Positions 44,736 through 64,000 of a stretch of 64,000 nt of DNA are shown one piece after another. The stretch is from Terebella lapidaria. Its lineage: Eukaryota > Annelida > Polychaeta > Terebellida > Terebellidae. The stretch covers positions 16,865,106-16,929,105 of the forward strand of contig OX424560.1 of NCBI GenBank assembly GCA_949152475.1, read 5' to 3'. The notes below the pieces were generated by a model. It was not told where the DNA came from. It saw nothing but the letters and a program-made list of their open reading frames with translations, and made no database searches. Numbering within the stretch: position 1 is the first letter of the stretch; each line of letters opens with the position of its first letter. Position numbers and translations under genes: made by a program.

Positions 44736-45690
44736 CTGATATCTCAAGCCTCTGACAAGTCACAGTGATCATCTTAACCTCCTGGTATTTCGAACTTCTG
44801 ACAAGTCACAAAGATCATCTTACCTTCCTGGTAGTTTGGGGTTTCTGACAAGACACAGAGATCATCTTAACCTCCTGGTATTTCGAGTCTCTGATAAATC
44901 ACAGAGATCATCTTACCTTCCTGGTATTTCGAGTCTCTAACAAGTCACAGAGATCATCTTAACCTCCTGGTATTTCGAGTCTCTGACAAATCACAGAGAT
45001 CATCTTACCTTCCTGGTATTTCGAGTCTATGACAAGTCACAGAGATCATCTTACCTTCCTGTTTTTCGAGTCTCTGACAAGTCACAGAGATCATCTTACC
45101 TTCCTGGTATTTCGAGTCTCTGACAAGTCACAGAGATCATCTCACCTTCCTGGTATTTCGAGTCTCTGACAAATCAGAGAGATCATCTTAACTTCCTGGT
45201 ATTTCGAGTCTCTGACAAGTCACAAAGATCATCTTACCTTCCTGGTATTTCGAGTCTCTGACAAGTCACAGGTATCATCTAAACCTTCCTGGTATTTCTA
45301 GTCTCTGACAAGTCACAGAGATCATCTTACCTTCCTGGTATTTCAAATCTCTAACTAGTCACAGATATCATCTTACCTTCCTTGTATTTCGATCCTTTGA
45401 CAAGTCACAAAGATCATCTTACTTTCCTGGTATTTCGAACCTTTGACAGGTCACAAAGATCATCTTACTTTCCTGGTATTTCGAACCTTTGACAGGTCAC
45501 AAAGATCATCTTACTTTCCTGGTATTTCGAACCTTTGACAGGTCACAAAGATCATCTTACCCTCCTGGTATTTTGATCCCTTGACAAGTCACAAAGATCA
45601 TTTTACTTTCCTGGTATTTCGAACCTTTGACAAGTCACAAAGATCATCTGTACCTTCCTGGTATTTCGAATATCTTACAAGTCACAAGTG
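44735..45690. repeat. ~47-bp minisatellite, about 20 copies
   Basis: Unit with GACAAGTCACAGAGATCATC, then TTACCTTCCTGGTATTTCGA and GTCTCT, at 45-48-bp spacing. Two subtypes are visible: the left part has GTCTCTGACAAGTCACAGAG, the right part has ACCTTTGACAGGTCACAAAG, as if arrays were homogenised in local blocks. Confidence 0.9.
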
Positions 45691-47881: not shown

Positions 47882-47924
<43 letters not shown>

Positions 47925-48102
47925 CATACACACACATATATATACATACACATACACATACATATACATATATATATATATACATATATACATATACATA
48001 CATATATACACATATACATATACACATACATACATACACATACACACATATATACACATACATACATACACACACATGCATATATACATACACGTACATA
48101 TA
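47868..48102. repeat. (CA/TA)n microsatellite, copy 1
   Basis: Alternating CA, TA and CATA runs. It directly follows the 3' end of the minus-strand LINE and marks the left border of the 13.7-kb duplicated segment. The same sequence recurs at 61600-61800. Long frames through it on both strands are artefacts. Confidence 0.95.
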
Positions 48103-50355
48103 TAGATCACTTAAACTTAATGATACGTATGGCATTTAAGAAATAACGTCAAATTAGTAGTTACATTGTTTGCAAAAAGTATTTTCACAAGTTACATTAT
48201 TAGAGTACAAGTCTATAAAATGATGCCTAAGCAGGGTGCTAAATCTCTTCCTGTTAATTTCGTCTTTAAATTTGACTGGGAAATTATTCCAAACATTGGG
48301 GATACTATAATACACATTCGATTTGGACCAGTTAGTTCTTGGTTTTGGTAAGGATATTTGATAATTTGCAGTACTTCTAGTGACTATTGAACTAATTCGA
48401 TTTAAAGGGTAAAAATTATTGAAGGCTTCTGGTAGGCGATTATTTGTGTAATCATGTGCAAATTTCATAATGTTGTATAAATACAGGTCCCGTAGTTTAA
48501 GAATATTTAATTGTTTAAAAATCGGTTCAGTATGTGCTCTGAATGTACTATTTGTGATTATTCGCACAGATTTTTTCTGAATAGCGAATAATTTGGGAAG
48601 TGAATTTGAATTTCCCCATGCTATGATTCCATATGAAATTCGGCTATGTATTAAACTGTAGTAAAGTGTTTTAAGAGCCGAAAGTGGTAAAATTCTTTTA
48701 ACTTTATTGAGACAATATAATGTATATGATATTTGTTTACGAAGGTTGTCAATATGTAGTTTCCATGTCAAATTTTCATCAATATGTAAGCCTAGAAATT
48801 TTATGCTTTCAGAATTATTATTATATCCACATTGCTCAATGGCTTCACCGTTGATAAAAATATTGATAGAATTGGTTTTGCTGGGCGAAAATACCATGAA
48901 TTTAGTTTTATTGGTGTTCATGAGAAGCTTATTCTCACAAAGCCATGTATATACTGATTTAAACTCATCATTAATTGTGTTCGATAATTCGACAGGGTCA
49001 CTGCTAGAATAATAGACTGTGGTGTCGTCGGCAAAAGAGAGGACTTTTAGTTTCGTAGAATAATGCAAATCATTAATATATATCAGAAAAAGAAGTGGAC
49101 CCAATATTGATCCCTGTGGGACGCCACATGTAATATCAGAACTTGGGGAGAATGAAGATTTAAATTCGGTAAATTGTTTTCTTCCGGACAAGTAATTCGA
49201 AAACCATAATATTGATGAACCTCTCACACCATAATGCTCCAACTTCGTTAGTAAAATATCATGGGATATAGTATCAAATGCTTTGCTCAAATCCAAGAAA
49301 ACAGCTGCAGTAATATCTTTAGTAGGTTTGTCATTCGCATTAGTTATATCTCTTATTAGTTTAATAATTGGGTGTATCGTTGAGTGTTTTTTCCGGAAGC
49401 CAAATTGGTTCTCAGTAAGGATTTTGTTCGTATTCAGATAGGAAGTGAGTCTTTTATACATAATTTTTTCCAATACTTTAGAAAATGAAGGTAGTAAACT
49501 GATAGGTCTGTAGTTATCAAAAATACGCTCATCACCAGATTTGAACACAGGTATAATTTTCGCTATTTTCATCTTTTCAGGTATAACACCAGTTGAAAAA
49601 GATAAGTTGAAAATATGGGCTAAGGGTTGTGTTATATACTCAATTGTTTGTTTCACTAATTTGGTACTGATATCATCATGTCCTGAGCTTTGTTTAGGTT
49701 TCAAGGAATTAACAACATCATGTATTTCGCTTGCACAAGTGGGGTTTATAAAAAACGAATTGGGAAATTGTCCTGTCAAGTGTCGAGAGAATTTGGAGTT
49801 GACAGGAGTAATTTTGCTAACTATGTTCATACCGATTTTAGAAAAATAATTATTGAAATTGTCTGCGATATCTTTGCAATTTGTAATGAGAGTATTGTTT
49901 ACATAAAAGTTGTCAGATAAGCTCTGTTTATCTTTTGTGTTGATAAGTTCTCTGAGGATTTTCCAAGAACGTTTTGAATCATCTTTGCTCTCATTCAGTA
50001 GATTTGTATAATATGTCTTCATAGCTAATCGTGATACTCTATTGAAAATTGAACAATACAATTTATAGCGAGATATGTTATTCGGTGTTGGCTTTTTGAA
50101 TTTTGTTTTCAGCAACTTACGTTTGTGTAAAGAGGAGACTAATAATCCACTGGTGAACCATGGATCACGCTTTACATATTTAGATGTACACTTTATCAAC
50201 TTCAAAGGAAAACACACGTCATATGCTGACTTGTATAATTCCATGAATTGATTATAGGAGTCGTTTGCACAGGAAGAATCGAATACAATTGAATAATCCA
50301 TGTCACGTAGAATCGAATTGAATCGCATAATGTTATTCTGACTGAAAGATCGTAG
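48103..50355 (-). mobile_element. LINE (CR1/Jockey-type), 5'-truncated copy 1
   Basis: A non-LTR retrotransposon body on the minus strand. Its 3' end merges into the microsatellite at 48102. Its 5' end is cut at 50355, where sequence switches abruptly to PLE ORF2. The same LINE sequence recurs at 61801-64000, offset by 13,698 bp, almost without differences. Confidence 0.9.
48154..50355 (-). CDS. LINE reverse transcriptase ORF, missing endonuclease
   Basis: About 730 codons of LINE origin. In order: the endonuclease-RT linker with YVKRDPWFTSGLL, fingers with SSGHDDISTKLVK, YRPISLLPSFSKVLEK, NQFGFRKKHST, palm AVFLDLSKAFDTI, GVPQGSILGPLLF, catalytic FADDTT, thumb KFLGLHIDENLTW, and a C-terminal region with RISYGIIAWGNS and a CX4CX2C ending. 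It performs target-primed reverse transcription in the family. The apurinic-type endonuclease normally N-terminal is absent. The open frame continues 26 codons past 50355 into antisense PLE sequence, so its apparent N-terminus is chimeric. One residue (Lys vs Arg near 48935) differs from the copy at 61852. Confidence 0.88.
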   Translation of the reverse strand, partial: LRSFSQNNIMRFNSILRDMDYSIVFDSSCANDSYNQFMELYKSAYDVCFPLKLIKCTSKYVKRDPWFTSGLLVSSLHKRKLLKTKFKKPTPNNISRYKLYCSIFNRVSRLAMKTYYTNLLNESKDDSKRSWKILRELINTKDKQSLSDNFYVNNTLITNCKDIADNFNNYFSKIGMNIVSKITPVNSKFSRHLTGQFPNSFFINPTCASEIHDVVNSLKPKQSSGHDDISTKLVKQTIEYITQPLAHIFNLSFSTGVIPEKMKIAKIIPVFKSGDERIFDNYRPISLLPSFSKVLEKIMYKRLTSYLNTNKILTENQFGFRKKHSTIHPIIKLIRDITNANDKPTKDITAAVFLDLSKAFDTISHDILLTKLEHYGVRGSSILWFSNYLSGRKQFTEFKSSFSPSSDITCGVPQGSILGPLLFLIYINDLHYSTKLKVLSFADDTTVYYSSSDPVELSNTINDEFKSVYTWLCENKLLMNTNKTKFMVFSPSKTNSINIFINGEAIEQCGYNNNSESIKFLGLHIDENLTWKLHIDNLRKQISYTLYCLNKVKRILPLSALKTLYYSLIHSRISYGIIAWGNSNSLPKLFAIQKKSVRIITNSTFRAHTEPIFKQLNILKLRDLYLYNIMKFAHDYTNNRLPEAFNNFYPLNRISSIVTRSTANYQISLPKPRTNWSKSNVYYSIPNVWNNFPVKFKDEINRKRFSTLLRHHFIDLYSNNVTCENTFCKQCNY

Positions 50356-51643
50356 ATTATTGGAAATCTCACTTAAATGTAATGACTTTGAATTTGACGG
50401 TAAGACATTCCTACAAGTTTCAGGCACAGCCATGGGTCAGAAATATGCACCTCATGCAGATATTTATATGGCTGAATTTGAAAAGCAAGCATTACAAATG
50501 TGTCCATTCAAACCAGATTGCTATTATAGGTATTTAGATGACATTTTCCTCATTTGGCCACACGGCACTTCCAAATTTAATCAGTTTCTCGAAATATTCA
50601 ATTCACATAGGGCATCAATCAAGTTCAAAGCTGAAATTAGCACTGATTCAGTTAATTTTCTGGATACTACTTTGTTCAGGAGCAAAGAAAACACATTAGA
50701 AGCAAAGGTTTTCTTCAAACCAACGGATACTCATCAGTTGCTGCATAAGCTCTCTTTTCATCCAAAGCACACTTATAAAGGACTAATCAAGTCCCAAGTT
50801 TTTCGATTTTTCCAAATTTGCTCCTATCCAGATGATGTTGAATTAGCTTGCCAAACATTATTCAAGGCACTTTCGAAACGTAACTATTCAAAACGTTGGC
50901 TTCGCAAAATAAAGAATGAAACATTGAGAATTCTAAACAGTGAGGAAAGGCTAGGTGCTGATTTTCAATTGCCCACTTCCAGCTCATCTGGCTCAAAACC
51001 TTGTAATTCTAGACTATGTCAAACATGTCATTTAGTTCCAAATTGTCAAAATTTCTCAGGATCAGTTTTTGAACAAACCTACTCAATCAACTCAGCTTTG
51101 GATTGCAACTCAGAAAATATAATTTATCTATACACTTGTAAGCTTTGCGAAAAACAATATGTAGGTGAAACCGGTAAATCACTCAAATTCAGAAACAATC
51201 GTCACCGTGCTGCAATAACTAGCTGCAATGAGGAAAATGCATTATACAGTCATCTATCTAAATTTCACAGCAAAACTGAATTTTCCATCGATTGTTTTTC
51301 TCTTTTACCAATTGAACAGGTTTCCGATCTTGGTGCTGAACTTTTAAACAAACAATGGCGACTTGAAAGGGAATATTGTTGGATTGATACTTTAGGCACT
51401 TTCGAACCTCATGGCCTCAACGTTCAAAAATTTACAAAGTATGACCCTTTGAACAAAAGTAAAAATAAATTCGACCTGGTGTATATAGTACCCTTCTCAA
51501 AAACAGGTGCTCTTTCGGCCCAAATTGTTAAAAAGCATATGAAACAACTCAACAAAAATACTGATGGTGATATTAAAATAGCAACAGCTTACAAGAAGCA
51601 TCAAAACCTTAAAGAACTTTTAGTCAGAAGCAAACTTAAATAA
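50356..51643 (+). pseudogene. PLE ORF2 (RT + GIY-YIG), 5'-truncated copy A
   Basis: Matches ORF2 of the full copies from residue ~297 onward: RT motif AMGQKYAPH, the YLDD box, thumb, and the GIY-YIG endonuclease. It lacks fingers and the first palm motif. A 3-bp in-frame deletion removes Tyr after YAPH in the RT core, and Asp to Ala appears near the end (SDLGAELL). The first ATG in this fragment is internal. 5' truncation is common for PLEs, so it cannot be active by itself. Confidence 0.9.
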
Positions 51644-52263
51644 TCCAACAAAATTTGTTCAATGTCGCTCATTGAATTTTTATTGCTGTTTTATGTTATG
51701 TGTTACTCTTACAATTATCTTGTGCCAGTGCATTTTTTATACTCTCCAAAACATACTTAGCCCGTGCCTAGCATATTGTAAGAGTCAAAACACATTTTAT
51801 AAACATTTTATGAATATTTTGTTTTTCAGTTCATTTTAGTACATTTTGTTTTTATTTCATCTCATTTTATTTGAAGTCTCCGGAAGCAATGCGAGTCAAT
51901 TTGACACATCTTCAGTTTCAAAAAACAATTTCATGCCTAATAAAATCTCTGCCTAAGAATCTATTGCTGGAAAGCACCGCAGTAATACCATTTTGAAAAT
52001 TATTTCTTTTAGCATACTTCAGAAAATATAACTTCAAACGTTATTTATGTTTGTCAATCAACTAACTGCTAATTGTTTTACTCAGTGTCAGATACGCATA
52101 TCAAAAACAATTGAATTCACTAACTGTTAATTATCTATACTCAACATATGTCACTTTTTTTGGCAAACTGTTCTGAAAACTGCTAATTGATTTGCTCAAC
52201 CATTGGAAAACTGTTAATTGATTTACTCAAACAAAATTGACATTGGCACAAGCCAAAATTTCC

Positions 52264-52271
52264 TATAAATA
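52264..52271 (+). promoter_or_regulatory. TATA box of the PLE
   Basis: TATAAATA in a CC-TATAAATA-C context, about 30 bp upstream of the hammerhead-like motif and 300 bp upstream of the ORF1 ATG. Conserved at 57194-57201. Transcription from here would start close to the ribozyme 5' strand. Confidence 0.5.
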
Positions 52272-52301
52272 CTGCAACCACAGTAGGTTCTTTAGACTTC
52301 A

Positions 52302-52339
52302 GCACTTGACAAAGGATTCAACTCCGAAACCGGTCGTGC
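52302..52339 (+). ncRNA. hammerhead-ribozyme-like motif, copy 1
   Basis: Folds in type I hammerhead order. Stem I is GCAC (52302-52305) with GTGC (52336-52339). The core strand is TTGACAA (52306-52312). Stem II is GGA/TCC with loop TTCAAC, then GAAA (52326-52329), a minimal stem III (AC/GT with CG loop) and a GTC cleavage triplet ending at 52335. The core differs from CUGANGA at C3 (U) and G8 (A). These two bases pair with each other in the hammerhead structure, so the change keeps the pair. Very short stem III is typical of PLE hammerheads, which often work as dimers. Catalysis is inferred only. Confidence 0.6.
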
Positions 52340-52356
52340 AACAGGCAGAGTACATT

Positions 52357-52406
52357 GTGAGTAACCTTTTTTTGATATTGTTTTGTATTATTTTGTTTTG
52401 TTTTAG
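52357..52406 (+). other. possible 50-nt intron in the PLE leader
   Basis: Starts GTGAGTAACC, ends in a T-rich tract and TTTTAG. PLEs are known to keep introns. It is conserved in the second copy (57287-57336). There is no transcript evidence. Confidence 0.3.
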
Positions 52407-52572
52407 ATCTGGTCAGATTATTGACCATATCTTTGCATTCAGGCTTCTTCGTTCATTTTGTTTCCATTTTATAAAATTGTTTTTATTTTTATGATTTTAT
52501 CCTTCGGTTTTATCATCCAAATCAATCGCGTTCTGGTTTTAATGCTTTCAAATTTAATTGCTGAAACGTATC

Positions 52573-54294
52573 ATGGCTCTTTCTAAACCTCCTCACTTCC
52601 GTTCTTTTTACACTCTCCTTCAATGCTTTCACCACCTGTCACTAATGCTCCAGCAGTCTCAAGGCCAAGTCACCAGGGCTTTCAGTAAAAAACAACAACA
52701 CCTGGATGACTTCATCAAACCTGCTTGTTCTGGTCCTCTAATCAAACAAAAAATCTCCAAAATCAATCAAAATTGGGTACAAAACGTGACCGAACAATTG
52801 GTGGAACACTACGAGAGCTCAATTCAAAACCTTTTGGCCCACATTTCCTCTTTAGGTTTATCTGATTCGGACATTGCAAATTCGGTAGCTCTCGTCATTC
52901 AGCAGGCTAAATCTCATTTCGGCAAAAAACTTCAGGGTTCCACCATCCAGAAATTCAAAAGCTCCACTCTTCCAAATTCCCCTATTCCAAATTCTACCTC
53001 TCAATCAAAACCTCAGACTTGTGAGGTTAAAGGTCACAAACACCCACTTAGTAATTTCTTCCCATGTAATATATCCTATCGTGGTATGAGATTCCCTAGC
53101 CTTGAGCACATCTATCAGTATCACAAAGCCCGGTACCATGACTGTCAACACCTAGCCAATCGGATCCTTAGGGCTCCCCATGCAGGAGTGGCTAAACGTT
53201 TGGCTAGTGAAATTCCTAGCCTGTCCCCGTTCTGGCATAAAAGTAAAAATGGAATCATGCGTCAACTTCTTCAAGTTAAGTTTAATTCTTGCAAATTGTT
53301 CCGTGACACTCTGATGGGTCTACCGGAAGGGTGTCACATTGTCCATCCAGTTCCTGACAGCCACTGGGGTGTTAATCGTCATGGTCAAGGCTCTAACTTC
53401 TTTGGCCGCCTCCTAATGGACCTAAAACGTGCCAACTCTCCTACTAACAATACTAAACCCTCTCGCTCTGTACCTCCATCCTCAAATAACACCCTCCCTA
53501 AAACCCTTCCCTCTGTGTCCACTTCTAACCGCTTCCAACTCCTTGACACTCTCTCTAATCCTCCTTGCCTCTCATCATCTGATGATTGGCCACCTCTCTC
53601 TCGCTCTTCTCCTGATAACCGCCTTAGTGCCACGCCCAAACGGCGTCTGCGCTCTCCTTCTTCTCCTGAACTCTCACCCTCCTCTCAACCTAAAGGCAAA
53701 CGCTCTCGCTTTGCCTCTCCTAAAAACTCTCCTAACACCACTTTCCATGTCTCTCCTTCTACTATCAGAGGGCCCAAAACTCTTTGGGCACTTCCTAAAC
53801 TAACCTCCTCCACTGTCGTCCTCGGCTCTTCTAACCTCTCTCGCATCACCAAATCCCCCGTCAGTGATATCCAAGTTGTGTCTTATCCTGGAGCTTTGTT
53901 CAACCATCTCAGAATGATGTTCACGGCCTGTAAAAAATCATTTGATGCCCCCAAAAACTTAATCTTAAGTGTTGGCCTGAACAATCGAAGCTCCAAACCA
54001 AGTGTTACTTCAATTCCAGAGCTGAGGAATATGCTCAGCAGTGCTTTCCGAATCTTCCCCCACTCCAAAATTCTTATTCCAAAAATTAACTACTCAGACA
54101 ATCTTCCGTCTGTAGAGAAACGCAACTTGGATATGATTAACAGGGCTTTGGATGACATGAGTTCACGTTTCAGCAATCTCACAGTTGTTAAACAGTTGGA
54201 TCCAATCAAGTTCTATACACAGCCAGATAACATTCATTGGACTGAACAAACGGCCAATGAAATGGTGAAATTCTGGCTCAGTCATTTAAACTAA
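52573..54294 (+). CDS. PLE ORF1: NADAR (YbiA-like) + SGNH hydrolase-like protein, copy B
   Basis: I place the start at ATG 52573 (ATCATGGC context), giving 573 residues. Residues ~1-150: helical, polar. ~158-285: a NADAR domain, with LSNFFPC, FPSLEHIYQYHKA (Glu of the E-H-x-x-Q motif), SPFWHK, MRQLLQVKF, DSHWGVN and GSNFFGRLLMDLK. The known catalytic Glu and the D-x-x-W-G and G-x-N-x-x-G-x-x-L-M motifs are all kept. ~290-405: Ser/Pro-rich with a basic bipartite NLS-like stretch (PKRRLRS...KGKRSRF). ~412-573: SGNH/GDSL-like, with LGSSNLSR (Ser block), YPGA (Gly), SVGLNN (Asn) and DNIHW (Asp-x-x-His). NADAR enzymes cleave N-glycosidic bonds of ADP-ribose-type or riboflavin-intermediate substrates; its job in a retroelement is unknown. 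It ends in a slippery site leading into ORF2. Confidence 0.85.
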   Translation: MALSKPPHFRSFYTLLQCFHHLSLMLQQSQGQVTRAFSKKQQHLDDFIKPACSGPLIKQKISKINQNWVQNVTEQLVEHYESSIQNLLAHISSLGLSDSDIANSVALVIQQAKSHFGKKLQGSTIQKFKSSTLPNSPIPNSTSQSKPQTCEVKGHKHPLSNFFPCNISYRGMRFPSLEHIYQYHKARYHDCQHLANRILRAPHAGVAKRLASEIPSLSPFWHKSKNGIMRQLLQVKFNSCKLFRDTLMGLPEGCHIVHPVPDSHWGVNRHGQGSNFFGRLLMDLKRANSPTNNTKPSRSVPPSSNNTLPKTLPSVSTSNRFQLLDTLSNPPCLSSSDDWPPLSRSSPDNRLSATPKRRLRSPSSPELSPSSQPKGKRSRFASPKNSPNTTFHVSPSTIRGPKTLWALPKLTSSTVVLGSSNLSRITKSPVSDIQVVSYPGALFNHLRMMFTACKKSFDAPKNLILSVGLNNRSSKPSVTSIPELRNMLSSAFRIFPHSKILIPKINYSDNLPSVEKRNLDMINRALDDMSSRFSNLTVVKQLDPIKFYTQPDNIHWTEQTANEMVKFWLSHLN

Positions 54295-56573
54295 ATCATT
54301 CTGAGAGTCCACCGAACTCCAGTACGACTAATAATGTTGTAAACCTTTCCAAATTTACACTTTCGGACACACAAATCGCTCTTCTAAATCGTGGTTTGAC
54401 ATTTGTTCCCACACCCAAAATAACATTGGATCCAATTGAACAAGCTGTGCAAGATTTTGGTAGAAAACTCAAACTTCAAAATTATTTTTCTCACCGTCCA
54501 AATTCATTTACAAATAGATCAAAATTCACTCCAAAATCTACCTGGACTCCACCCAGTTCCATGATTGACAAGCCTGTTTTGGATTGCATTTCGGCAATAT
54601 CTAAAGAAATTAAAAATTTGAAAATTCAACCAGAAACCAAGAACCTAACAAAAATTGAATATAAAACTATAAAGGATTTACAAAATAACGTAGACTTGGT
54701 AATCAAAAAAGCAGATAAAGGTAGTGCAGTCGTAATTTTGGATAAGCAAAATTATATTAATGAAGGTTTTCGTCAATTATACAATCCAGCTCATTACAGA
54801 GAAATTGACACTCCTCTTTACCTAGAAAATTCAGAAAAAATTACAAAAATTTTAAAAGGATTACGCAATTCTGGATGCCTTTCTGAAAAAGTATTCCAAT
54901 TTCTTTTACCACCAGAACACCCTCGTCAAAGAAGATTTTATATGCTACCTAAAATTCATAAACCCAAAGACTCCTGGCCAATTCCAAATGTAATGCCACC
55001 AGGGCGCCCAATTGTTTCTGACTGCAGCAGTGAATCTGAAAAAGTAGCTATGTATATTGATTCATATATAAAAGATCAAGCAAATAAGCATCCATCATAT
55101 ATAAAAAACACGTATGACTTTTTAGATAAAGTGAGAGGGTTTGAACTAGATCCAAATTCTTTACTAATCACTTTAGATGTTGAAAGTATGTATACTAATA
55201 TAAATCATGAAGAAGGTATCCAAGCAATTAAAAATGCATTCCCGACTCTGAAAAACAATGAACTATTCAAAGGTATAATAGAATTATTGGAAATCTCACT
55301 TAAATGTAATGACTTTGAATTTGACGGTAAGACATTCCTACAAGTTTCAGGCACAGCCATGGGTCAGAAATATGCACCTCATTATGCAGATATTTATATG
55401 GCTGAATTTGAAAAGCAAGCATTACAAATGTGTCCATTCAAACCAGATTGCTATTATAGGTATTTAGATGACATTTTCCTCATTTGGCCACACGGCACTT
55501 CCAAATTTAATCAGTTTCTCGAAATATTCAATTCACATAGGGCATCAATCAAGTTCAAAGCTGAAATTAGCACTGATTCAGTTAATTTTCTGGATACTAC
55601 TTTGTTCAGGAGCAAAGAAAACACATTAGAAGCAAAGGTTTTCTTCAAACCAACGGATACTCATCAGTTGCTGCATAAGCTCTCTTTTCATCCAAAGCAC
55701 ACTTATAAAGGACTAATCAAGTCCCAAGTTTTTCGATTTTTCCAAATTTGCTCCTATCCAGATGATGTTGAATTAGCTTGCCAAACATTATTCAAGGCAC
55801 TTTCGAAACGTAACTATTCAAAACGTTGGCTTCGCAAAATAAAGAATGAAACATTGAGAATTCTAAACAGTGAGGAAAGGCTAGGTGCTGATTTTCAATT
55901 GCCCACTTCCAGCTCATCTGGCTCAAAACCTTGTAATTCTAGACTATGTCAAACATGTCATTTAGTTCCAAATTGTCAAAATTTCTCAGGATCAGTTTTT
56001 GAACAAACCTACTCAATCAACTCAGCTTTGGATTGCAACTCAGAAAATATAATTTATCTATACACTTGTAAGCTTTGCGAAAAACAATATGTAGGTGAAA
56101 CCGGTAAATCACTCAAATTCAGAAACAATCGTCACCGTGCTGCAATAACTAGCTGCAATGAGGAAAATGCATTATACAGTCATCTATCTAAATTTCACAG
56201 CAAAACTGAATTTTCCATCGATTGTTTTTCTCTTTTACCAATTGAACAGGTTTCCGATCTTGGTGATGAACTTTTAAACAAACAATGGCGACTTGAAAGG
56301 GAATATTGTTGGATTGATACTTTAGGCACTTTCGAACCTCATGGCCTCAACGTTCAAAAATTTACAAAGTATGACCCTTTGAACAAAAGTAAAAATAAAT
56401 TCGACCTGGTGTATATAGTACCCTTCTCAAAAACAGGTGCTCTTTCGGCCCAAATTGTTAAAAAGCATATGAAACAACTCAACAAAAATACTGATGGTGA
56501 TATTAAAATAGCAACAGCTTACAAGAAGCATCAAAACCTTAAAGAACTTTTAGTCAGAAGCAAACTTAAATAA
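54261..56573 (+). CDS. PLE ORF2: reverse transcriptase + GIY-YIG endonuclease, copy B
   Basis: The frame is open from 54261 and has no ATG before the conserved RT begins, so translation by -1 frameshift from ORF1 is likely. From 54396, about 725 residues: KKADKGSAVVILD, FYMLPKIHKP (PLE-type RT lead motif), GRPIVSDCSS, ITLDVESMYTNI (motif A), GTAMGQKYAPHYAD (B), YYRYLDDIFLIW (catalytic DD, C), then thumb, a Cys/His cluster (CNSRLCQTCHLVPNC) and a GIY-YIG nuclease: NIIYLYTCKLCEKQYVGETG, R and H in the following helix, and LEREYCW carrying the late Glu. This is the standard PLE pair of activities: the nuclease nicks target DNA and the RT primes from it. All catalytic residues visible are intact. 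Confidence 0.92.
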   Translation, partial: NGEILAQSFKLNHSESPPNSSTTNNVVNLSKFTLSDTQIALLNRGLTFVPTPKITLDPIEQAVQDFGRKLKLQNYFSHRPNSFTNRSKFTPKSTWTPPSSMIDKPVLDCISAISKEIKNLKIQPETKNLTKIEYKTIKDLQNNVDLVIKKADKGSAVVILDKQNYINEGFRQLYNPAHYREIDTPLYLENSEKITKILKGLRNSGCLSEKVFQFLLPPEHPRQRRFYMLPKIHKPKDSWPIPNVMPPGRPIVSDCSSESEKVAMYIDSYIKDQANKHPSYIKNTYDFLDKVRGFELDPNSLLITLDVESMYTNINHEEGIQAIKNAFPTLKNNELFKGIIELLEISLKCNDFEFDGKTFLQVSGTAMGQKYAPHYADIYMAEFEKQALQMCPFKPDCYYRYLDDIFLIWPHGTSKFNQFLEIFNSHRASIKFKAEISTDSVNFLDTTLFRSKENTLEAKVFFKPTDTHQLLHKLSFHPKHTYKGLIKSQVFRFFQICSYPDDVELACQTLFKALSKRNYSKRWLRKIKNETLRILNSEERLGADFQLPTSSSSGSKPCNSRLCQTCHLVPNCQNFSGSVFEQTYSINSALDCNSENIIYLYTCKLCEKQYVGETGKSLKFRNNRHRAAITSCNEENALYSHLSKFHSKTEFSIDCFSLLPIEQVSDLGDELLNKQWRLEREYCWIDTLGTFEPHGLNVQKFTKYDPLNKSKNKFDLVYIVPFSKTGALSAQIVKKHMKQLNKNTDGDIKIATAYKKHQNLKELLVRSKLK
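54285..54291 (+). promoter_or_regulatory. -1 ribosomal frameshift slippery site, copy B
   Basis: T TTA AAC in the correct phase of ORF1 (CAT TTA AAC TAA), followed at once by the ORF1 stop TAA (54292-54294). A -1 slip gives TTT AAA CTA AAT, exactly the ORF2 frame, which is open from 54261. UUUAAAC is among the most efficient known -1 slippery heptamers. A weak stem (GAGT/ACTC) starts about 13 nt downstream; no strong pseudoknot was recognised. Confidence 0.7.
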
Positions 56574-57563
56574 TCCAACAAAATTTGTTCAATGTCGCTC
56601 ATTGAATTTTTATTGCTGTTTTATGTTATGTGTTACTCTTACAATTATCTTGTGCCAGTGCATTTTTTATACTCTCCAAAACATACTTAGCCCGTGCCTA
56701 GCATATTGTAAGAGTCAAAACAAATTTTATAAACATTTTATGAATATTTTGTTTTTCAGTTCATTTTAGTACATTTTGTTTTTATTTCATCTCATTTTAT
56801 TTGAAGTCTCCGGAAGCAATGCAAGTCAATTTGACACATCTTCAGTTTCAAAAAACAATTTCATGCCTAATAAAATCTCTGCCTAAGAATCTATTGCTGG
56901 AAAGCACCGCAGTAATACCATTTTGAAAATTATTTCTTTTAGCATACTTCAGAAAATATAACTTCAAACGTTATTTATGTTTGTCAATCAACTAACTGCT
57001 AATTGTTTTACTCAGTGTCAGATACGCATATCAAAAACAATTGAATTCACTAACTGTTAATTATCTATACTCAACATATGTCACTTTTTTTGGCAAACTG
57101 TTCTGAAAACTGCTAATTGATTTGCTCAACCATTGGAAAACTGTTAATTGATTTACTCAAACAAAATTGACATTGGCACAAGCCAAAATTTCCTATAAAT
57201 ACTGCAACCACAGTAGGTTCTTTAGACTTCAGCACTTGACAAAGGATTCAACTCCGAAACCGGTCGTGCAACAGGCAGAGTACATTGTGAGTAACCTTTT
57301 TTTGATATTGTTTTGTATTATTTTGTTTTGTTTTAGATCTGGTCAGATTATTGACCATATCTTTGCATTCAGGCTTCTTCGTTCATTTTGTTTCCATTTT
57401 ATAAAATTGTTTTTATTTTTATGATTTTATCCTTCGGTTTTATCATCCAAATCAATCGCGTTCTGGTTTTAATGCTTTCAAATTTAATTGCTGAAACGTA
57501 TCATAACCTCCTCACTTCCGTTCTTTTTACACTCTCCTTCAATGCTTTCACCACCTGTCACTA
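56574..57563 (+). repeat. PLE inter-element leader / pseudo-LTR, copy B-C
   Basis: Nearly identical to 51644-52572, with a few substitutions (for example CAAATT for CACATT near 56720) and an 11-bp deletion at about 57504/57505 that removes the ORF1 ATG. TATA box 57194-57201; possible intron 57287-57336. Confidence 0.8.
57232..57269 (+). ncRNA. hammerhead-ribozyme-like motif, copy 2
   Basis: Identical to 52302-52339, exactly 4930 bp downstream. Predicted cleavage after 57265. Cleavage at both sites would release a unit-length RNA. The third unit is truncated before its motif. Confidence 0.6.
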
Positions 57564-59213
57564 ATGCTCCAGCAGTCTCAAGGCCAAGTCACCAGGGCTT
57601 TCAGTAAAAAACAACAACACCTGGATGACTTCATCAAACCTGCTTGTTCTGGTCCTCTAATCAAACAAAAAATCTCCAAAATCAATCAAAATTGGGTACA
57701 AAACGTGACCGAACAATTGGTGGAACACTACGAGAGCTCAATTCAAAACCTTTTGGCCCACATTTCCTCTTTAGGTTTATCTGATTCGGACATTGCAAAT
57801 TCGGTAGCTCTCGTCATTCAGCAGGCTAAATCTCATTTCGGCAAAAAACTTCAGGGTTCCACCATCCAGAAATTCAAAAGCTCCACTCTTCCAAATTCCC
57901 CTATTCCAAATTCTACCTCTCAATCAAAACCTCAGACTTGTGAGGTTAAAGGTCACAAACACCCACTTAGTAATTTCTTCCCATGTAATATATCCTATCG
58001 TGGTATGAGATTCCCTAGCCTTGAGCACATCTATCAGTATCACAAAGCCCGGTACCATGACTGTCAACACCTAGCCAATCGGATCCTTAGGGCTCCCCAT
58101 GCAGGAGTGGCTAAACGTTTGGCTAGTGAAATTCCTAGCCTGTCCCCGTTCTGGCATAAAAGTAAAAATGGAATCATGCGTCAACTTCTTCAAGTTAAGT
58201 TTAATTCTTGCAAATTGTTCCGTGACACTCTGATGGGTCTACCGGAAGGGTGTCACATTGTCCATCCAGTTCCTGACAGCCACTGGGGTGTTAATCGTCA
58301 TGGTCAAGGCTCTAACTTCTTTGGCCGCCTCCTAATGGACCTAAAACGTGCCAACTCTCCTACTAACAATACTAAACCCTCTCGCTCTGTACCTCCATCC
58401 TCAAATAACACCCTCCCTAAAACCCTTCCCTCTGTGTCCACTTCTAACCGCTTCCAACTCCTTGACACTCTCTCTAATCCTCCTTGCCTCTCATCATCTG
58501 ATGATTGGCCACCTCTCTCTCGCTCTTCTCCTGATAACCGCCTTAGTGCCACGCCCAAACGGCGTCTGCGCTCTCCTTCTTCTCCTGAACTCTCACCCTC
58601 CTCTCAACCTAAAGGCAAACGCTCTCGCTTTGCCTCTCCTAAAAACTCTCCTAACACCACTTTCCATGTCTCTCCTTCTACTATCAGAGGGCCCAAAACT
58701 CTTTGGGCACTTCCTAAACTAACCTCCTCCACTGTCGTCCTCGGCTCTTCTAACCTCTCTCGCATCACCAAATCCCCCGTCAGTGATATCCAAGTTGTGT
58801 CTTATCCTGGAGCTTTGTTCAACCATCTCAGAATGATGTTCACGGCCTGTAAAAAATCATTTGATGCCCCCAAAAACTTAATCTTAAGTGTTGGCCTGAA
58901 CAATCGAAGCTCCAAACCAAGTGTTACTTCAATTCCAGAGCTGAGGAATATGCTCAGCAGTGCTTTCCGAATCTTCCCCCACTCCAAAATTCTTATTCCA
59001 AAAATTAACTACTCAGACAATCTTCCGTCTGTAGAGAAACGCAACTTGGATATGATTAACAGGGCTTTGGATGACATGAGTTCACGTTTCAGCAATCTCA
59101 CAGTTGTTAAACAGTTGGATCCAATCAAGTTCTATACACAGCCAGATAACATTCATTGGACTGAACAAACGGCCAATGAAATGGTGAAATTCTGGCTCAG
59201 TCATTTAAACTAA
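57564..59213 (+). CDS. PLE ORF1: NADAR + SGNH hydrolase-like, copy C with lost start
   Basis: Same protein as copy B from residue 30 onward, apparently identical through the NADAR and SGNH parts. The 11-bp deletion upstream removes the original ATG and shifts the first codons, so the first usable ATG is 57564 and the product lacks ~24 N-terminal residues (549 long). NADAR and esterase-like domains are complete, so it may still function. It ends in the same slippery site at 59204-59210. Confidence 0.85.
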   Translation: MLQQSQGQVTRAFSKKQQHLDDFIKPACSGPLIKQKISKINQNWVQNVTEQLVEHYESSIQNLLAHISSLGLSDSDIANSVALVIQQAKSHFGKKLQGSTIQKFKSSTLPNSPIPNSTSQSKPQTCEVKGHKHPLSNFFPCNISYRGMRFPSLEHIYQYHKARYHDCQHLANRILRAPHAGVAKRLASEIPSLSPFWHKSKNGIMRQLLQVKFNSCKLFRDTLMGLPEGCHIVHPVPDSHWGVNRHGQGSNFFGRLLMDLKRANSPTNNTKPSRSVPPSSNNTLPKTLPSVSTSNRFQLLDTLSNPPCLSSSDDWPPLSRSSPDNRLSATPKRRLRSPSSPELSPSSQPKGKRSRFASPKNSPNTTFHVSPSTIRGPKTLWALPKLTSSTVVLGSSNLSRITKSPVSDIQVVSYPGALFNHLRMMFTACKKSFDAPKNLILSVGLNNRSSKPSVTSIPELRNMLSSAFRIFPHSKILIPKINYSDNLPSVEKRNLDMINRALDDMSSRFSNLTVVKQLDPIKFYTQPDNIHWTEQTANEMVKFWLSHLN

Positions 59214-61492
59214 ATCATTCTGAGAGTCCACCGAACTCCAGTACGACTAATAATGTTGTAAACCTTTCCAAATTTACACTTTCGGACACACAAATCGCTC
59301 TTCTAAATCGTGGTTTGACATTTGTTCCCACACCCAAAATAACATTGGATCCAATTGAACAAGCTGTGCAAGATTTTGGTAGAAAACTCAAACTTCAAAA
59401 TTATTTTTCTCACCGTCCAAATTCATTTACAAATAGATCAAAATTCACTCCAAAATCTACCTGGACTCCACCCAGTTCCATGATTGACAAGCCTGTTTTG
59501 GATTGCATTTCGGCAATATCTAAAGAAATTAAAAATTTGAAAATTCAACCAGAAACCAAGAACCTAACAAAAATTGAATATAAAACTATAAAGGATTTAC
59601 AAAATAACGTAGACTTGGTAATCAAAAAAGCAGATAAAGGTAGTGCAGTCGTAATTTTGGATAAGCAAAATTATATTAATGAAGGTTTTCGTCAATTATA
59701 CAATCCAGCTCATTACAGAGAAATTGACACTCCTCTTTACCTAGAAAATTCAGAAAAAATTACAAAAATTTTAAAAGGATTACGCAATTCTGGATGCCTT
59801 TCTGAAAAAGTATTCCAATTTCTTTTACCACCAGAACACCCTCGTCAAAGAAGATTTTATATGCTACCTAAAATTCATAAACCCAAAGACTCCTGGCCAA
59901 TTCCAAATGTAATGCCACCAGGGCGCCCAATTGTTTCTGACTGCAGCAGTGAATCTGAAAAAGTAGCTATGTATATTGATTCATATATAAAAGATCAAGC
60001 AAATAAGCATCCATCATATATAAAAAACACGTATGACTTTTTAGATAAAGTGAGAGGGTTTGAACTAGATCCAAATTCTTTACTAATCACTTTAGATGTT
60101 GAAAGTATGTATACTAATATAAATCATGAAGAAGGTATCCAAGCAATTAAAAATGCATTCCCGACTCTGAAAAACAATGAACTATTCAAAGGTATAATAG
60201 AATTATTGGAAATCTCACTTAAATGTAATGACTTTGAATTTGACGGTAAGACATTCCTACAAGTTTCAGGCACAGCCATGGGTCAGAAATATGCACCTCA
60301 TTATGCAGATATTTATATGGCTGAATTTGAAAAGCAAGCATTACAAATGTGTCCATTCAAACCAGATTGCTATTATAGGTATTTAGATGACATTTTCCTC
60401 ATTTGGCCACACGGCACTTCCAAATTTAATCAGTTTCTCGAAATATTCAATTCACATAGGGCATCAATCAAGTTCAAAGCTGAAATTAGCACTGATTCAG
60501 TTAATTTTCTGGATACTACTTTGTTCAGGAGCAAAGAAAACACATTAGAAGCAAAGGTTTTCTTCAAACCAACGGATACTCATCAGTTGCTGCATAAGCT
60601 CTCTTTTCATCCAAAGCACACTTATAAAGGACTAATCAAGTCCCAAGTTTTTCGATTTTTCCAAATTTGCTCCTATCCAGATGATGTTGAATTAGCTTGC
60701 CAAACATTATTCAAGGCACTTTCGAAACGTAGCTATTCAAAACGTTGGCTTCGCAAAATAAAGAATGAAACATTGAGAATTCTAAACAGTGAGGAAAGGC
60801 TAGGTGCTGATTTTCAATTGCCCACTTCCAGCTCATCTGGCTCAAAACCTTGTAATTCTAGACTATGTCAAACATGTCATTTAGTTCCAAATTGTCAAAA
60901 TTTCTCAGGATCAGTTTTTGAACAAACCTACTCAATCAACTCAGCTTTGGATTGCAACTCAGAAAATATAATTTATCTATACACTTGTAAGCTTTGCGAA
61001 AAACAATATGTAGGTGAAACCGGTAAATCACTCAAATTCAGAAACAATCGTCACCGTGCTGCAATAACTAGCTGCAATGAGGAAAATGCATTATACAGTC
61101 ATCTATCTAAATTTCACAGCAAAACTGAATTTTCCATCGATTGTTTTTCTCTTTTACCAATTGAACAGGTTTCCGATCTTGGTGATGAACTTTTAAACAA
61201 ACAATGGCGACTTGAAAGGGAATATTGTTGGATTGATACTTTAGGCACTTTCGAACCTCATGGCCTCAACGTTCAAAAATTTACAAAGTATGACCCTTTG
61301 AACAAAAGTAAAAATAAATTCGACCTGGTGTATATAGTACCCTTCTCAAAAACAGGTGCTCTTTCGGCCCAAATTGTTAAAAAGCATATGAAACAACTCA
61401 ACAAAAATACTGATGGTGATATTAAAATAGCAACAGCTTACAAGAAGCATCAAAACCTTAAAGAACTTTTAGTCAGAAGCAAACTTAAATAA
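59180..61492 (+). CDS. PLE ORF2: reverse transcriptase + GIY-YIG endonuclease, copy C
   Basis: Open in the -1 frame across the ORF1 stop and intact to 61492. I see one amino-acid difference from copy B (Asn to Ser near residue 473, 60733). All RT motifs (ITLDVESMYT, GTAMGQKYAP, YLDD) and GIY-YIG residues are present. With ORF1 of the same unit, it is a potentially competent element except for the missing 3' leader. Confidence 0.92.
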   Translation, partial: NGEILAQSFKLNHSESPPNSSTTNNVVNLSKFTLSDTQIALLNRGLTFVPTPKITLDPIEQAVQDFGRKLKLQNYFSHRPNSFTNRSKFTPKSTWTPPSSMIDKPVLDCISAISKEIKNLKIQPETKNLTKIEYKTIKDLQNNVDLVIKKADKGSAVVILDKQNYINEGFRQLYNPAHYREIDTPLYLENSEKITKILKGLRNSGCLSEKVFQFLLPPEHPRQRRFYMLPKIHKPKDSWPIPNVMPPGRPIVSDCSSESEKVAMYIDSYIKDQANKHPSYIKNTYDFLDKVRGFELDPNSLLITLDVESMYTNINHEEGIQAIKNAFPTLKNNELFKGIIELLEISLKCNDFEFDGKTFLQVSGTAMGQKYAPHYADIYMAEFEKQALQMCPFKPDCYYRYLDDIFLIWPHGTSKFNQFLEIFNSHRASIKFKAEISTDSVNFLDTTLFRSKENTLEAKVFFKPTDTHQLLHKLSFHPKHTYKGLIKSQVFRFFQICSYPDDVELACQTLFKALSKRSYSKRWLRKIKNETLRILNSEERLGADFQLPTSSSSGSKPCNSRLCQTCHLVPNCQNFSGSVFEQTYSINSALDCNSENIIYLYTCKLCEKQYVGETGKSLKFRNNRHRAAITSCNEENALYSHLSKFHSKTEFSIDCFSLLPIEQVSDLGDELLNKQWRLEREYCWIDTLGTFEPHGLNVQKFTKYDPLNKSKNKFDLVYIVPFSKTGALSAQIVKKHMKQLNKNTDGDIKIATAYKKHQNLKELLVRSKLK
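59204..59210 (+). promoter_or_regulatory. -1 ribosomal frameshift slippery site, copy C
   Basis: T TTA AAC followed by TAA at 59211-59213; ORF2 lies in the -1 frame, as in copy B. Confidence 0.7.
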
Positions 61493-61599
61493 TCCAACAA
61501 AATTTGTTCAATGTCGCTCATTGAATTTTTATTGCTGTTTTATGTTATGTGTTACTCTTACAATTATCTTGTGCCAGTGCATTTTTTATACTCTCCAAA

Positions 61600-61802
61600 A
61601 CACACACACACACATATATATACATACACACACATATATATACATACACATACACATACATATACATATATATATATATACATATATACATATACATACA
61701 TATATACACATATACATATACACATACATACATACACATACACACATATATACACATACATACATACACACACATGCATATATACATACACGTACATATA
61801 TA
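61600..61802. repeat. (CA/TA)n microsatellite, copy 2
   Basis: Begins at the PLE sequence ...CTCCAAAACA, where the array stops, and continues as the same CATA series as at 47900-48102, followed by the same LINE 3' end. Confidence 0.95.
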
Positions 61803-64000
61803 GATCACTTAAACTTAATGATACGTATGGCATTTAAGAAATAACGTCAAATTAGTAGTTACATTGTTTGCAAAAAGTATTTTCACAAGTTACATTATTA
61901 GAGTACAAGTCTATAAAATGATGCCTAAGCAGGGTGCTAAATCTCTTCCTGTTAATTTCGTCTTTAAATTTGACTGGGAAATTATTCCAAACATTGGGGA
62001 TACTATAATACACATTCGATTTGGACCAGTTAGTTCTTGGTTTTGGTAAGGATATTTGATAATTTGCAGTACTTCTAGTGACTATTGAACTAATTCGATT
62101 TAAAGGGTAAAAATTATTGAAGGCTTCTGGTAGGCGATTATTTGTGTAATCATGTGCAAATTTCATAATGTTGTATAAATACAGGTCCCGTAGTTTAAGA
62201 ATATTTAATTGTTTAAAAATCGGTTCAGTATGTGCTCTGAATGTACTATTTGTGATTATTCGCACAGATTTTTTCTGAATAGCGAATAATTTGGGAAGTG
62301 AATTTGAATTTCCCCATGCTATGATTCCATATGAAATTCGGCTATGTATTAAACTGTAGTAAAGTGTTTTAAGAGCCGAAAGTGGTAAAATTCTTTTAAC
62401 TTTATTGAGACAATATAATGTATATGATATTTGTTTACGAAGGTTGTCAATATGTAGTTTCCATGTCAAATTTTCATCAATATGTAAGCCTAGAAATTTT
62501 ATGCTTTCAGAATTATTATTATATCCACATTGCTCAATGGCTTCACCGTTGATAAAAATATTGATAGAATTGGTTTTGCTGGGCGAAAATACCATGAATT
62601 TAGTTTTATTGGTGTTCATGAGAAGCCTATTCTCACAAAGCCATGTATATACTGATTTAAACTCATCATTAATTGTGTTCGATAATTCGACAGGGTCACT
62701 GCTAGAATAATAGACTGTGGTGTCGTCGGCAAAAGAGAGGACTTTTAGTTTCGTAGAATAATGCAAATCATTAATATATATCAGAAAAAGAAGTGGACCC
62801 AATATTGATCCCTGTGGGACGCCACATGTAATATCAGAACTTGGGGAGAATGAAGATTTAAATTCGGTAAATTGTTTTCTTCCGGACAAGTAATTCGAAA
62901 ACCATAATATTGATGAACCTCTCACACCATAATGCTCCAACTTCGTTAGTAAAATATCATGGGATATAGTATCAAATGCTTTGCTCAAATCCAAGAAAAC
63001 AGCTGCAGTAATATCTTTAGTAGGTTTGTCATTCGCATTAGTTATATCTCTTATTAGTTTAATAATTGGGTGTATCGTTGAGTGTTTTTTCCGGAAGCCA
63101 AATTGGTTCTCAGTAAGGATTTTGTTCGTATTCAGATAGGAAGTGAGTCTTTTATACATAATTTTTTCCAATACTTTAGAAAATGAAGGTAGTAAACTGA
63201 TAGGTCTGTAGTTATCAAAAATACGCTCATCACCAGATTTGAACACAGGTATAATTTTCGCTATTTTCATCTTTTCAGGTATAACACCAGTTGAAAAAGA
63301 TAAGTTGAAAATATGGGCTAAGGGTTGTGTTATATACTCAATTGTTTGTTTCACTAATTTGGTACTGATATCATCATGTCCTGAGCTTTGTTTAGGTTTC
63401 AAGGAATTAACAACATCATGTATTTCGCTTGCACAAGTGGGGTTTATAAAAAACGAATTGGGAAATTGTCCTGTCAAGTGTCGAGAGAATTTGGAGTTGA
63501 CAGGAGTAATTTTGCTAACTATGTTCATACCGATTTTAGAAAAATAATTATTGAAATTGTCTGCGATATCTTTGCAATTTGTAATGAGAGTATTGTTTAC
63601 ATAAAAGTTGTCAGATAAGCTCTGTTTATCTTTTGTGTTGATAAGTTCTCTGAGGATTTTCCAAGAACGTTTTGAATCATCTTTGCTCTCATTCAGTAGA
63701 TTTGTATAATATGTCTTCATAGCTAATCGTGATACTCTATTGAAAATTGAACAATACAATTTATAGCGAGATATGTTATTCGGTGTTGGCTTTTTGAATT
63801 TTGTTTTCAGCAACTTACGTTTGTGTAAAGAGGAGACTAATAATCCACTGGTGAACCATGGATCACGCTTTACATATTTAGATGTACACTTTATCAACTT
63901 CAAAGGAAAACACACGTCATATGCTGACTTGTATAATTCCATGAATTGATTATAGGAGTCGTTTGCACAGGAAGAATCGAATACAATTGAATAATCCATG
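61803..64000 (-). mobile_element. LINE (CR1/Jockey-type), copy 2, cut by window edge
   Basis: Repeat of 48103-50302 with offset 13,698 bp and essentially no differences. It runs off the right edge. Confidence 0.9.
61852..64000 (-). CDS. LINE reverse transcriptase ORF, copy 2, partial
   Basis: The same frame as 48154-50355: linker, RT with GVPQGSILGPLLF and FADDTT, thumb and C-terminal Cys cluster, stop TAA at 61852. One Lys to Arg change (CENRLL). The frame reaches the window edge, so whether this copy keeps its endonuclease, or also switches to PLE sequence about 53 bp beyond 64000, is the key unknown. Confidence 0.88.
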   Translation of the reverse strand, partial: MDYSIVFDSSCANDSYNQFMELYKSAYDVCFPLKLIKCTSKYVKRDPWFTSGLLVSSLHKRKLLKTKFKKPTPNNISRYKLYCSIFNRVSRLAMKTYYTNLLNESKDDSKRSWKILRELINTKDKQSLSDNFYVNNTLITNCKDIADNFNNYFSKIGMNIVSKITPVNSKFSRHLTGQFPNSFFINPTCASEIHDVVNSLKPKQSSGHDDISTKLVKQTIEYITQPLAHIFNLSFSTGVIPEKMKIAKIIPVFKSGDERIFDNYRPISLLPSFSKVLEKIMYKRLTSYLNTNKILTENQFGFRKKHSTIHPIIKLIRDITNANDKPTKDITAAVFLDLSKAFDTISHDILLTKLEHYGVRGSSILWFSNYLSGRKQFTEFKSSFSPSSDITCGVPQGSILGPLLFLIYINDLHYSTKLKVLSFADDTTVYYSSSDPVELSNTINDEFKSVYTWLCENRLLMNTNKTKFMVFSPSKTNSINIFINGEAIEQCGYNNNSESIKFLGLHIDENLTWKLHIDNLRKQISYTLYCLNKVKRILPLSALKTLYYSLIHSRISYGIIAWGNSNSLPKLFAIQKKSVRIITNSTFRAHTEPIFKQLNILKLRDLYLYNIMKFAHDYTNNRLPEAFNNFYPLNRISSIVTRSTANYQISLPKPRTNWSKSNVYYSIPNVWNNFPVKFKDEINRKRFSTLLRHHFIDLYSNNVTCENTFCKQCNY

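Follow-up and report, generated by a model that had tools for sequence, protein, structure and literature searches.

The Terebella lapidaria genome carries what its sequence identifies as a high-copy, endonuclease-bearing Penelope-like retroelement. Its first open reading frame (ORF1) joins a helical domain, a NADAR domain and an SGNH hydrolase-like domain, and its second (ORF2) encodes a reverse transcriptase (RT) followed by a GIY-YIG endonuclease. A sequence-only reading of the window, the whole 64,000-nucleotide stretch analysed here, had proposed a Penelope-like element (PLE) with a NADAR-SGNH ORF1. This is confirmed, as the element is repeated through the genome and has relatives elsewhere. 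The placement of ORF1 upstream of RT and GIY-YIG was also borne out, but the reading missed the −1 frameshift junction that would tie the two frames together. The features of the window are as follows.

50353..51753, plus strand: 5′-truncated first PLE unit (tail of the RT/GIY-YIG ORF2 and 3′ region), matching 55279-56683 and 60198-61602 at 99.6-99.7%
52294..52572, plus strand: probable 5′ leader, from the left breakpoints of copies L006, L012, L018, L019 and L028
52573..54294, plus strand: ORF1, 573 amino acids, with helical domain, NADAR, disordered linker and SGNH
52573..52977, plus strand: N-terminal all-helical domain of ORF1, from the alignment and a model of pLDDT 90.3
53005..53448, plus strand: NADAR domain of ORF1
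53764..54291, plus strand: SGNH hydrolase-like domain of ORF1
54285..54291, plus strand: UUUAAAC, a candidate slippery heptamer read U_UUA_AAC in the ORF1 frame, immediately 5′ of the ORF1 stop
54261..56573, plus strand: ORF2 (RT and GIY-YIG), shifted by −1 relative to ORF1, its frame opening at 54261
55125..55556, plus strand: reverse transcriptase core (YLDD), PF00078 E 2.5e-11
56049..56324, plus strand: GIY-YIG endonuclease domain, PF01541 E 0.0019, under the cut-off, conserved in the alignment of relatives
57564..59213, plus strand: third-unit ORF1, 549 amino acids from an internal ATG, with a TAA near the upstream start
59204..59210, plus strand: third-unit candidate slippery heptamer, placed from the ORF1 end (this copy is L003)
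59315..61492, plus strand: third-unit ORF2, listed with a TTG start; upstream of it the −1 frame is already open

The array in the window consists of one 5′-truncated unit and two longer units, spaced by 4.92-4.93 kb and aligning at 99.7%. Two marks of an endonuclease-positive (EN+) PLE are found, namely RT then GIY-YIG in one ORF and head-to-tail partial tandems with 5′ truncation. In the relatives P0017, L072 and L073 the GIY-YIG domain scores above the Pfam cut-off, and the RVT_1 matches of L072 and L073 fall slightly under theirs. A hammerhead ribozyme motif has been reported for PLEs and is not universal; the Rfam hammerhead search gave no match at E<=5 in window 50000-62000. Among 30 sampled copies, five begin at the equivalent of 52294-52295 and four (L007, L021, L022, L030) within the next 50 bases. 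The remaining 5′ ends lie upstream (L004, L005, L013), lie later, or are continuous with a tandem neighbour. If 52294 is the usual 5′ end, the leader before ORF1 is 279 bases long.

The 3′ end of the last unit abuts an AC/AT microsatellite, which makes up the 3′ tail of a LINE on the minus strand. Near-identical minus-strand copies of this LINE (99.96%) flank the array at window 47902-50352 and 61600-64000. At L071, just outside the window, the other edge of the LINE is followed by 700 unmatched bases and then by more element at 97%. In a rotifer, a Penelope element has been described that sits in a LINE as a partial tandem (PMC3846280). Elsewhere in the window, 9213-10899 contains 737 bases enclosed by inverted repeats of 221 and 184 bases, one nested in the other and 92-95% complementary, possibly a foldback element, and a minisatellite with a 46-base unit in about 21 copies lies at 44729-45686.

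When the window’s own assembly (761.6 Mb) was searched with ORF1, 75 of 1130 first-look candidates were scored, at 97-100% identity. An internal stop is present in two of the 75, one being the window’s third unit. As the copies are near-identical, the element appears to have been recently active. The copies fetched for closer study were those that best matched the window’s ORF1, and in 30 of 30, spread over many contigs, ORF2 follows ORF1; 28 lie outside the window and two (L001 and L003) are its own. In 29 of these the ORF1 match ends 105 bases before the first codon of ORF2, and in L016 the match starts at residue 35. Frame breaks occur within ORF2 in some copies. The pairing is thus not local, which goes against the refuting condition that the sequence-only reading had set for the joining of the two frames. 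With the relative P0032 (52% identity) as the ORF2 query, 58 places were scored, some of which adjoin listed ORF1 places (e.g., C11 near 27987132). The match contains two TGA in 57 places and one in the other. Since the window has two −1-frame TGA just 5′ of the opening at 54261, these are read as lying outside ORF2.

The N-terminal domain of ORF1 (window 52573-52977) gives a confident five-helix model (pLDDT 90) and is conserved in relatives both with and without NADAR; Foldseek returned no match at E<=0.001 in PDB or BFVD. The linker is proline/serine-rich and disordered, with a basic patch. In the SGNH domain the S, G, N and H blocks occur together with the fold, as expected of an SGNH hydrolase. 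The HMM search proposed with the sequence-only reading matched NADAR but gave no Pfam GDSL match for SGNH in the window protein, so that the latter assignment stands by fold and family profile. The profile matches 4c1b (ZfL2-1 ORF1p) at E 1.7e-7, and sub-threshold Pfam GDSL matches were obtained in P0009, P0011 and L072. By this comparison the SGNH domain, as distinct from the whole element, is homologous to the LINE (CR1/L2) ORF1 esterase. Its catalytic Ser396 is missing in one of the 30 copies.

Outside the assembly, a protein search covering 5.8 billion sequences found 11 relatives of ORF1, to which a profile search adds one weak match, P0132. Pfam NADAR is found in nine of the 11; P0009 and P0011 are without it, yet retain the helical region and the SGNH end. 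Three of the 11 agree with RT relatives in exact contig size and source: P0003 with P0019 (5375, ena), P0004 with P0014 (4805, jgi) and P0006 with P0024 (14721, ena). These pairs indirectly indicate ORF1-RT linkage beyond this assembly. The other eight have no such partner among the best 120 of 1822 RT matches. Four eukaryote-like stretches, L072, L073, L074 and L075, came up when contigs of bacterial genomes were scanned with an RT profile; they lie in MAG or single-cell assemblies of bacteria (Enterovibrio, Epulopiscium, a Bathymodiolus symbiont and Saccharibacteria). These Penelope-like stretches presumably represent contamination from the host or another eukaryote.

In L073, from the Epulopiscium single-cell assembly, the element is tandem, and an ORF1 with the helical region and SGNH, without NADAR, lies upstream of ORF2 on the same contig. 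Its SGNH domain aligns to the family at E 1.1e-36. In L072, from the Enterovibrio MAG, the helical and SGNH parts lie at opposite contig ends, the SGNH part directly before RT, and neither ORF1 piece has NADAR. From these ORF1s, SGNH plus the helical domain looks like a wider ground plan, with NADAR as a facultative insert between them. As NADAR is absent from L073, P0009, P0011 and both L072 pieces, it appears dispensable for the element type.

The NADAR domain of the window, at about 60 bits, scores above the Pfam gathering score and has the YbiA fold. Catalysis in the E. coli C7 NADAR has been assigned to E88, K95 and D171, and in a Phytophthora NADAR E43 and E125 touch the ribose; in the last strand, the YbiA family has Glu, BC4488 has Asp and phage NADARs have His (PMC11543638, PMC11125620). 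The counterparts of E88 and K95 are E154 and K161, with the Lys seven residues after the Glu, and both are present in 30/30 copies and 23/23 aligned NADARs. H234 is likewise present in 30/30 copies. The NADAR motifs had been described as intact, which holds for the catalytic Glu and Lys but not for the last-strand Glu of YbiA, whose loss alters the site. All nine family NADARs lack it, with V, S, T or H in eight and a gap in P0010; RT linkage is demonstrated or indicated for four of these nine rows (window, P0003, P0004, P0006). Directly next to the lost position stands an invariant His, and the profile alignment to 8BAU sets this His opposite E125 itself. The Glu is kept in all 14 other aligned rows, among them the four sampled phage rows, which are therefore not His-type NADARs. 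With the YbiA-family catalytic Glu lost, activity and specificity may differ, and the invariant His may work like the His of phage NADARs.

Selection was assessed on 31 loci, one of them a duplicate, leaving 30 distinct copies. The all-pairs pN/pS comes to 0.090 (NADAR), 0.186 (helical domain), 0.219 (SGNH) and 0.542 (linker), and to 0.190 for the first 460 residues of ORF2 (RT). A codon bootstrap gives 0.038-0.170 for NADAR, 0.127-0.278 for RT, 0.103-0.429 for SGNH and 0.056-0.642 for the helical domain, intervals that are too narrow because the pairs share ancestry and are not independent. NADAR is lower in 97% of resamples against RT, 96% against SGNH and 86% against the helical domain. The loci were picked by best match to ORF1 queries, which biases the values towards low change across ORF1 overall. 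NADAR is the most constrained part of ORF1 and is under purifying constraint.

Other NADARs are abundant in this genome. A Pfam search gave 150 scored places out of 973 candidates, at 119-171 bits (e.g., C16:29036979-29037428) vs. about 60 for the PLE NADAR. Ten of these loci were read (L061-L070), giving eight LINE-ORF1-like ORFs of 408-457 residues and two shorter ones. The eight consist of a coiled coil, a middle part that resembles L1 ORF1 by eye and a C-terminal NADAR. Pfam was run on L061 and L069, and of these two L069 alone is followed by an ORF that matches an endonuclease below threshold. In that ORF (L069:2115-2789), a 2A-like DVEPNPGP string precedes the match. At C6:12340190-12377586, NADAR ORFs of the high-scoring type lie on the minus strand, partly in 4.06-4.16 kb steps, among plus-strand copies of the element.

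All five aligned LINE-like NADARs differ from those of the PLE in keeping the YbiA Glu. In a 23-row tree they form a group (99/98) separate from the nine family NADARs (92/92, not starred), and the two together with P0132 are set apart from the phage and bacterial rows (98/94). The PLE NADARs thus appear to group with the LINE-like NADARs of the same genome and not with the sampled phage or bacterial ones, although the rows are few. The sequence-only reading had proposed capture of an enzyme by the element; capture from a host enzyme is not supported by this grouping in a small tree, and no host NADAR gene was identified.

The two ORFs of the element meet at a distinctive junction. ORF1 ends with CAT TTA AAC TAA and ORF2 occupies the −1 frame, in which there is no ATG from 54261 until codon 93 after the heptamer, beyond the conserved PTP motif. 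U_UUA_AAC is a canonical −1 slippery heptamer and is used by coronaviruses. The junction therefore has the form expected for −1 frameshifting, an X_XXY_YYZ heptamer at the 0-frame end with an ORF in the −1 frame. UUUAAAC is present at 60/60 sampled junctions, of which 22 are distinct and all belong to near-identical copies. The more distant L073, with an RT 35% identical and no NADAR, reads TCA TAT TTA AAC, then four further codons and the stop, with ORF2 again in the −1 frame. Its T_TTA_AAC sits at the same Ser-[His/Tyr]-Leu-Asn position as in the window family. As the stop is displaced and the heptamer kept, it is the heptamer and not the stop that is the conserved feature.

Among RT relatives (120 listed of 1822), 74 have the start motif and 23 of the 74 reach at least 38 residues upstream. 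FKL occurs in 15 of these 23 long N-termini among the matches listed, 34-40 residues before the start motif in 14 and 57 in one. It is absent from the other eight, two of which have FKR. His/Tyr-Leu-Asn can be encoded in the ORF1 frame by 14 of the 15 FKL relatives, and 12 permit a stop directly after. Against a background of 0.44 per residue for [HY]LN coding, P is 8.9e-5 if the relatives are independent, which they are not. The 13 ORF1 rows have Leu-Asn at the end or shortly before it. Downstream structure gave z-scores of -1.74 for the window, -0.24 for L073 and +0.62 for L072, none significant. The L072 junction lacks UUUAAAC; it has G_GAU_UUA, known as the slippery site of MMTV pro-pol, and an AUG that overlaps the ORF1 stop, so that coupling in L072 could be by reinitiation. 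Together, the heptamer, which recurs in distant L073, and the AUG-less −1 ORF2 make it likely that a Gag-Pol-like −1 programmed frameshift joins ORF1 to RT in vivo.

Parts of this arrangement have precedents. NADAR of the YbiA family has been reported in the Gypsy Pol of Ectocarpus and in ORF1s of Crassostrea gigas Tx1 LINEs, where it was suggested to help process RNA intermediates (PMC12477816). These proteins resemble the present one in holding NADAR inside a retrotransposon protein, but belong to other retroelement classes, and the accessible text mentions no SGNH fusion. An SGNH esterase ORF1 was noted in Repbase entries of Penelope-like elements by Schneider et al. 2013 (PMC3905857). These share the SGNH domain with the present family, whose profile matches 4c1b; the accessible part of that source mentions neither NADAR nor an ORF1-ORF2 junction, both of which are found here. 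The esterase of ZfL2-1 is hydrolytically active and attaches to negatively charged phospholipids (PMC3905857). The Athena terminons of rotifers also combine a Penelope-class RT with accessory GDSL esterase ORFs, but they are endonuclease-deficient, reach 40 kb and have many ORFs, with no NADAR mentioned in the accessible text (PMC5408684, PMC6431247). The DarT1-NADAR and YarT-YbiA antitoxins have the same fold and E/K catalytic pair; there the last strand has Asp or Glu and no retroelement is involved, whereas here the Glu is absent and an invariant His is adjacent (PMC11543638, PMC11125620). The sequence-only reading knew of no described family with this combination. Among the literature matches listed there is no report of the NADAR-SGNH combination or of NADAR in a Penelope-like element, nor of −1 frameshifting or a Gag-Pol-like fusion in one. 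Published NADAR retroelements (PMC12477816) and SGNH PLEs (PMC3905857) narrow the claim: what is apparently new is the combination together with the −1 junction.

In the reading judged moderately probable, ORF1 would be a Gag-like particle protein, with the helical N-terminal domain probably serving assembly. The majority of ribosomes would terminate at the ORF1 UAA, and a few would shift back one base on UUUAAAC to make an ORF1-RT-endonuclease fusion. This fusion would carry the enzymes into the ORF1 particle as a minor component, as in Gag-Pol. The particle-held NADAR would most likely be an ADP-ribosyl hydrolase that cleans the element RNA or cDNA of ADP-ribosylation, whether by the host or linked to damage, that would otherwise stop reverse transcription. 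SGNH would probably aid membrane or lipid association, as in ZfL2-1. Domains, linkage, copy number, constraint, heptamer and frame were computed; from these we infer frameshifting in vivo, hydrolase activity and the protective role. The nucleic-acid substrate known for NADARs is guanine-ADP-ribose. They remove ADP-ribose from guanine in DNA (PMC11543638), and reversal of guanine ADP-ribosylation is reported for DNA and RNA alike (PMC11543638, PMC11125620, PMC11833690); among the hydrolase families tested they alone reverse guanosine-base ADP-ribosylation of RNA (PMC11833690). The closest published idea seen, in partly accessible literature, concerns NADARs of RNA viruses, including annelid and bivalve picornaviruses, for which ADP-ribosylation of host macromolecules was put forward as the target (PMC9503650).

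It is possible, though somewhat unlikely, that this NADAR is no longer a hydrolase and serves as a nucleic-acid or ADP-ribose binding module in RNP assembly. The loss of the last-strand Glu from 9/9 family NADARs would fit such a role, as would the ORF1 setting; SGNH ORF1s have been discussed as RNP and membrane players (PMC3905857, PMC5408684). However, E154 and K161 persist in 30/30 copies and the catalytic pair in 9/9 family rows, the NADAR pN/pS is the lowest in ORF1, and phage NADARs, described with His at that position, are reported to be active (PMC11125620), though on RNA the T4 NADAR was less active than that of E. coli C7 (PMC11833690). That NADAR has small-molecule substrates, either ADP-ribose derivatives or riboflavin intermediates, and does not act on element nucleic acid is unlikely. 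YbiA acts on riboflavin intermediates (PMC11543638), soluble ADP-ribose derivatives have been put forward as the main targets of phage NADARs (PMC9503650), and NCBIfam TIGR02464 is the top model, though under its cut-off (62.4 vs. 73.7 bits). For such a task a free enzyme should suffice, whereas this NADAR is fused to ORF1 and, through the putative frameshift, to RT.

The expression and the very pairing of the two ORFs could also be explained differently. Termination-reinitiation or near-cognate initiation of ORF2 in place of a −1 frameshift is favoured by the overlapping AUG of L072 and by the lack of significant downstream structure at the junctions. It is nevertheless quite improbable, as no AUG occurs in the −1 frame between 54261 and codon 93 downstream of the heptamer, a point beyond the PTP motif, and L073 keeps the heptamer although its stop is displaced. 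Tandem repeats are prone to misassembly, but chance or an assembly artefact of a single locus has a negligible probability in view of the pairing at 30/30 loci distributed over many contigs (28 lie beyond the window), the L073 relative on another contig, and the 58 scored ORF2 places, some adjoining ORF1 places.

Beyond the frameshifted, Gag-like arrangement preferred above, it could be postulated that the NADARs of these unrelated Penelope-like and LINE-like retroelements are an answer to host or stress ADP-ribosylation of retroelement RNA or cDNA. The Penelope-like one would be a nucleic-acid de-ADP-ribosylase of counter-defence with a His-based site, supplied as an ORF1-NADAR-SGNH-RT fusion through a −1 frameshift of the coronavirus type. 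This proposal is tentative and, on present evidence, rather unlikely. What animal NADARs do physiologically has been stated to be unclear (PMC11125620). If the counter-defence proposal were true, it would reveal an undescribed ADP-ribosylation barrier to retrotransposition. A constrained PLE NADAR and LINE-like NADAR ORF1s in one genome offer a direct test of whether nucleic-acid ADP-ribosylation restrains retroelements, and the heptamer at the ORF1-RT junction provides a testable route to a Gag-Pol-like fusion in Penelope-like elements.
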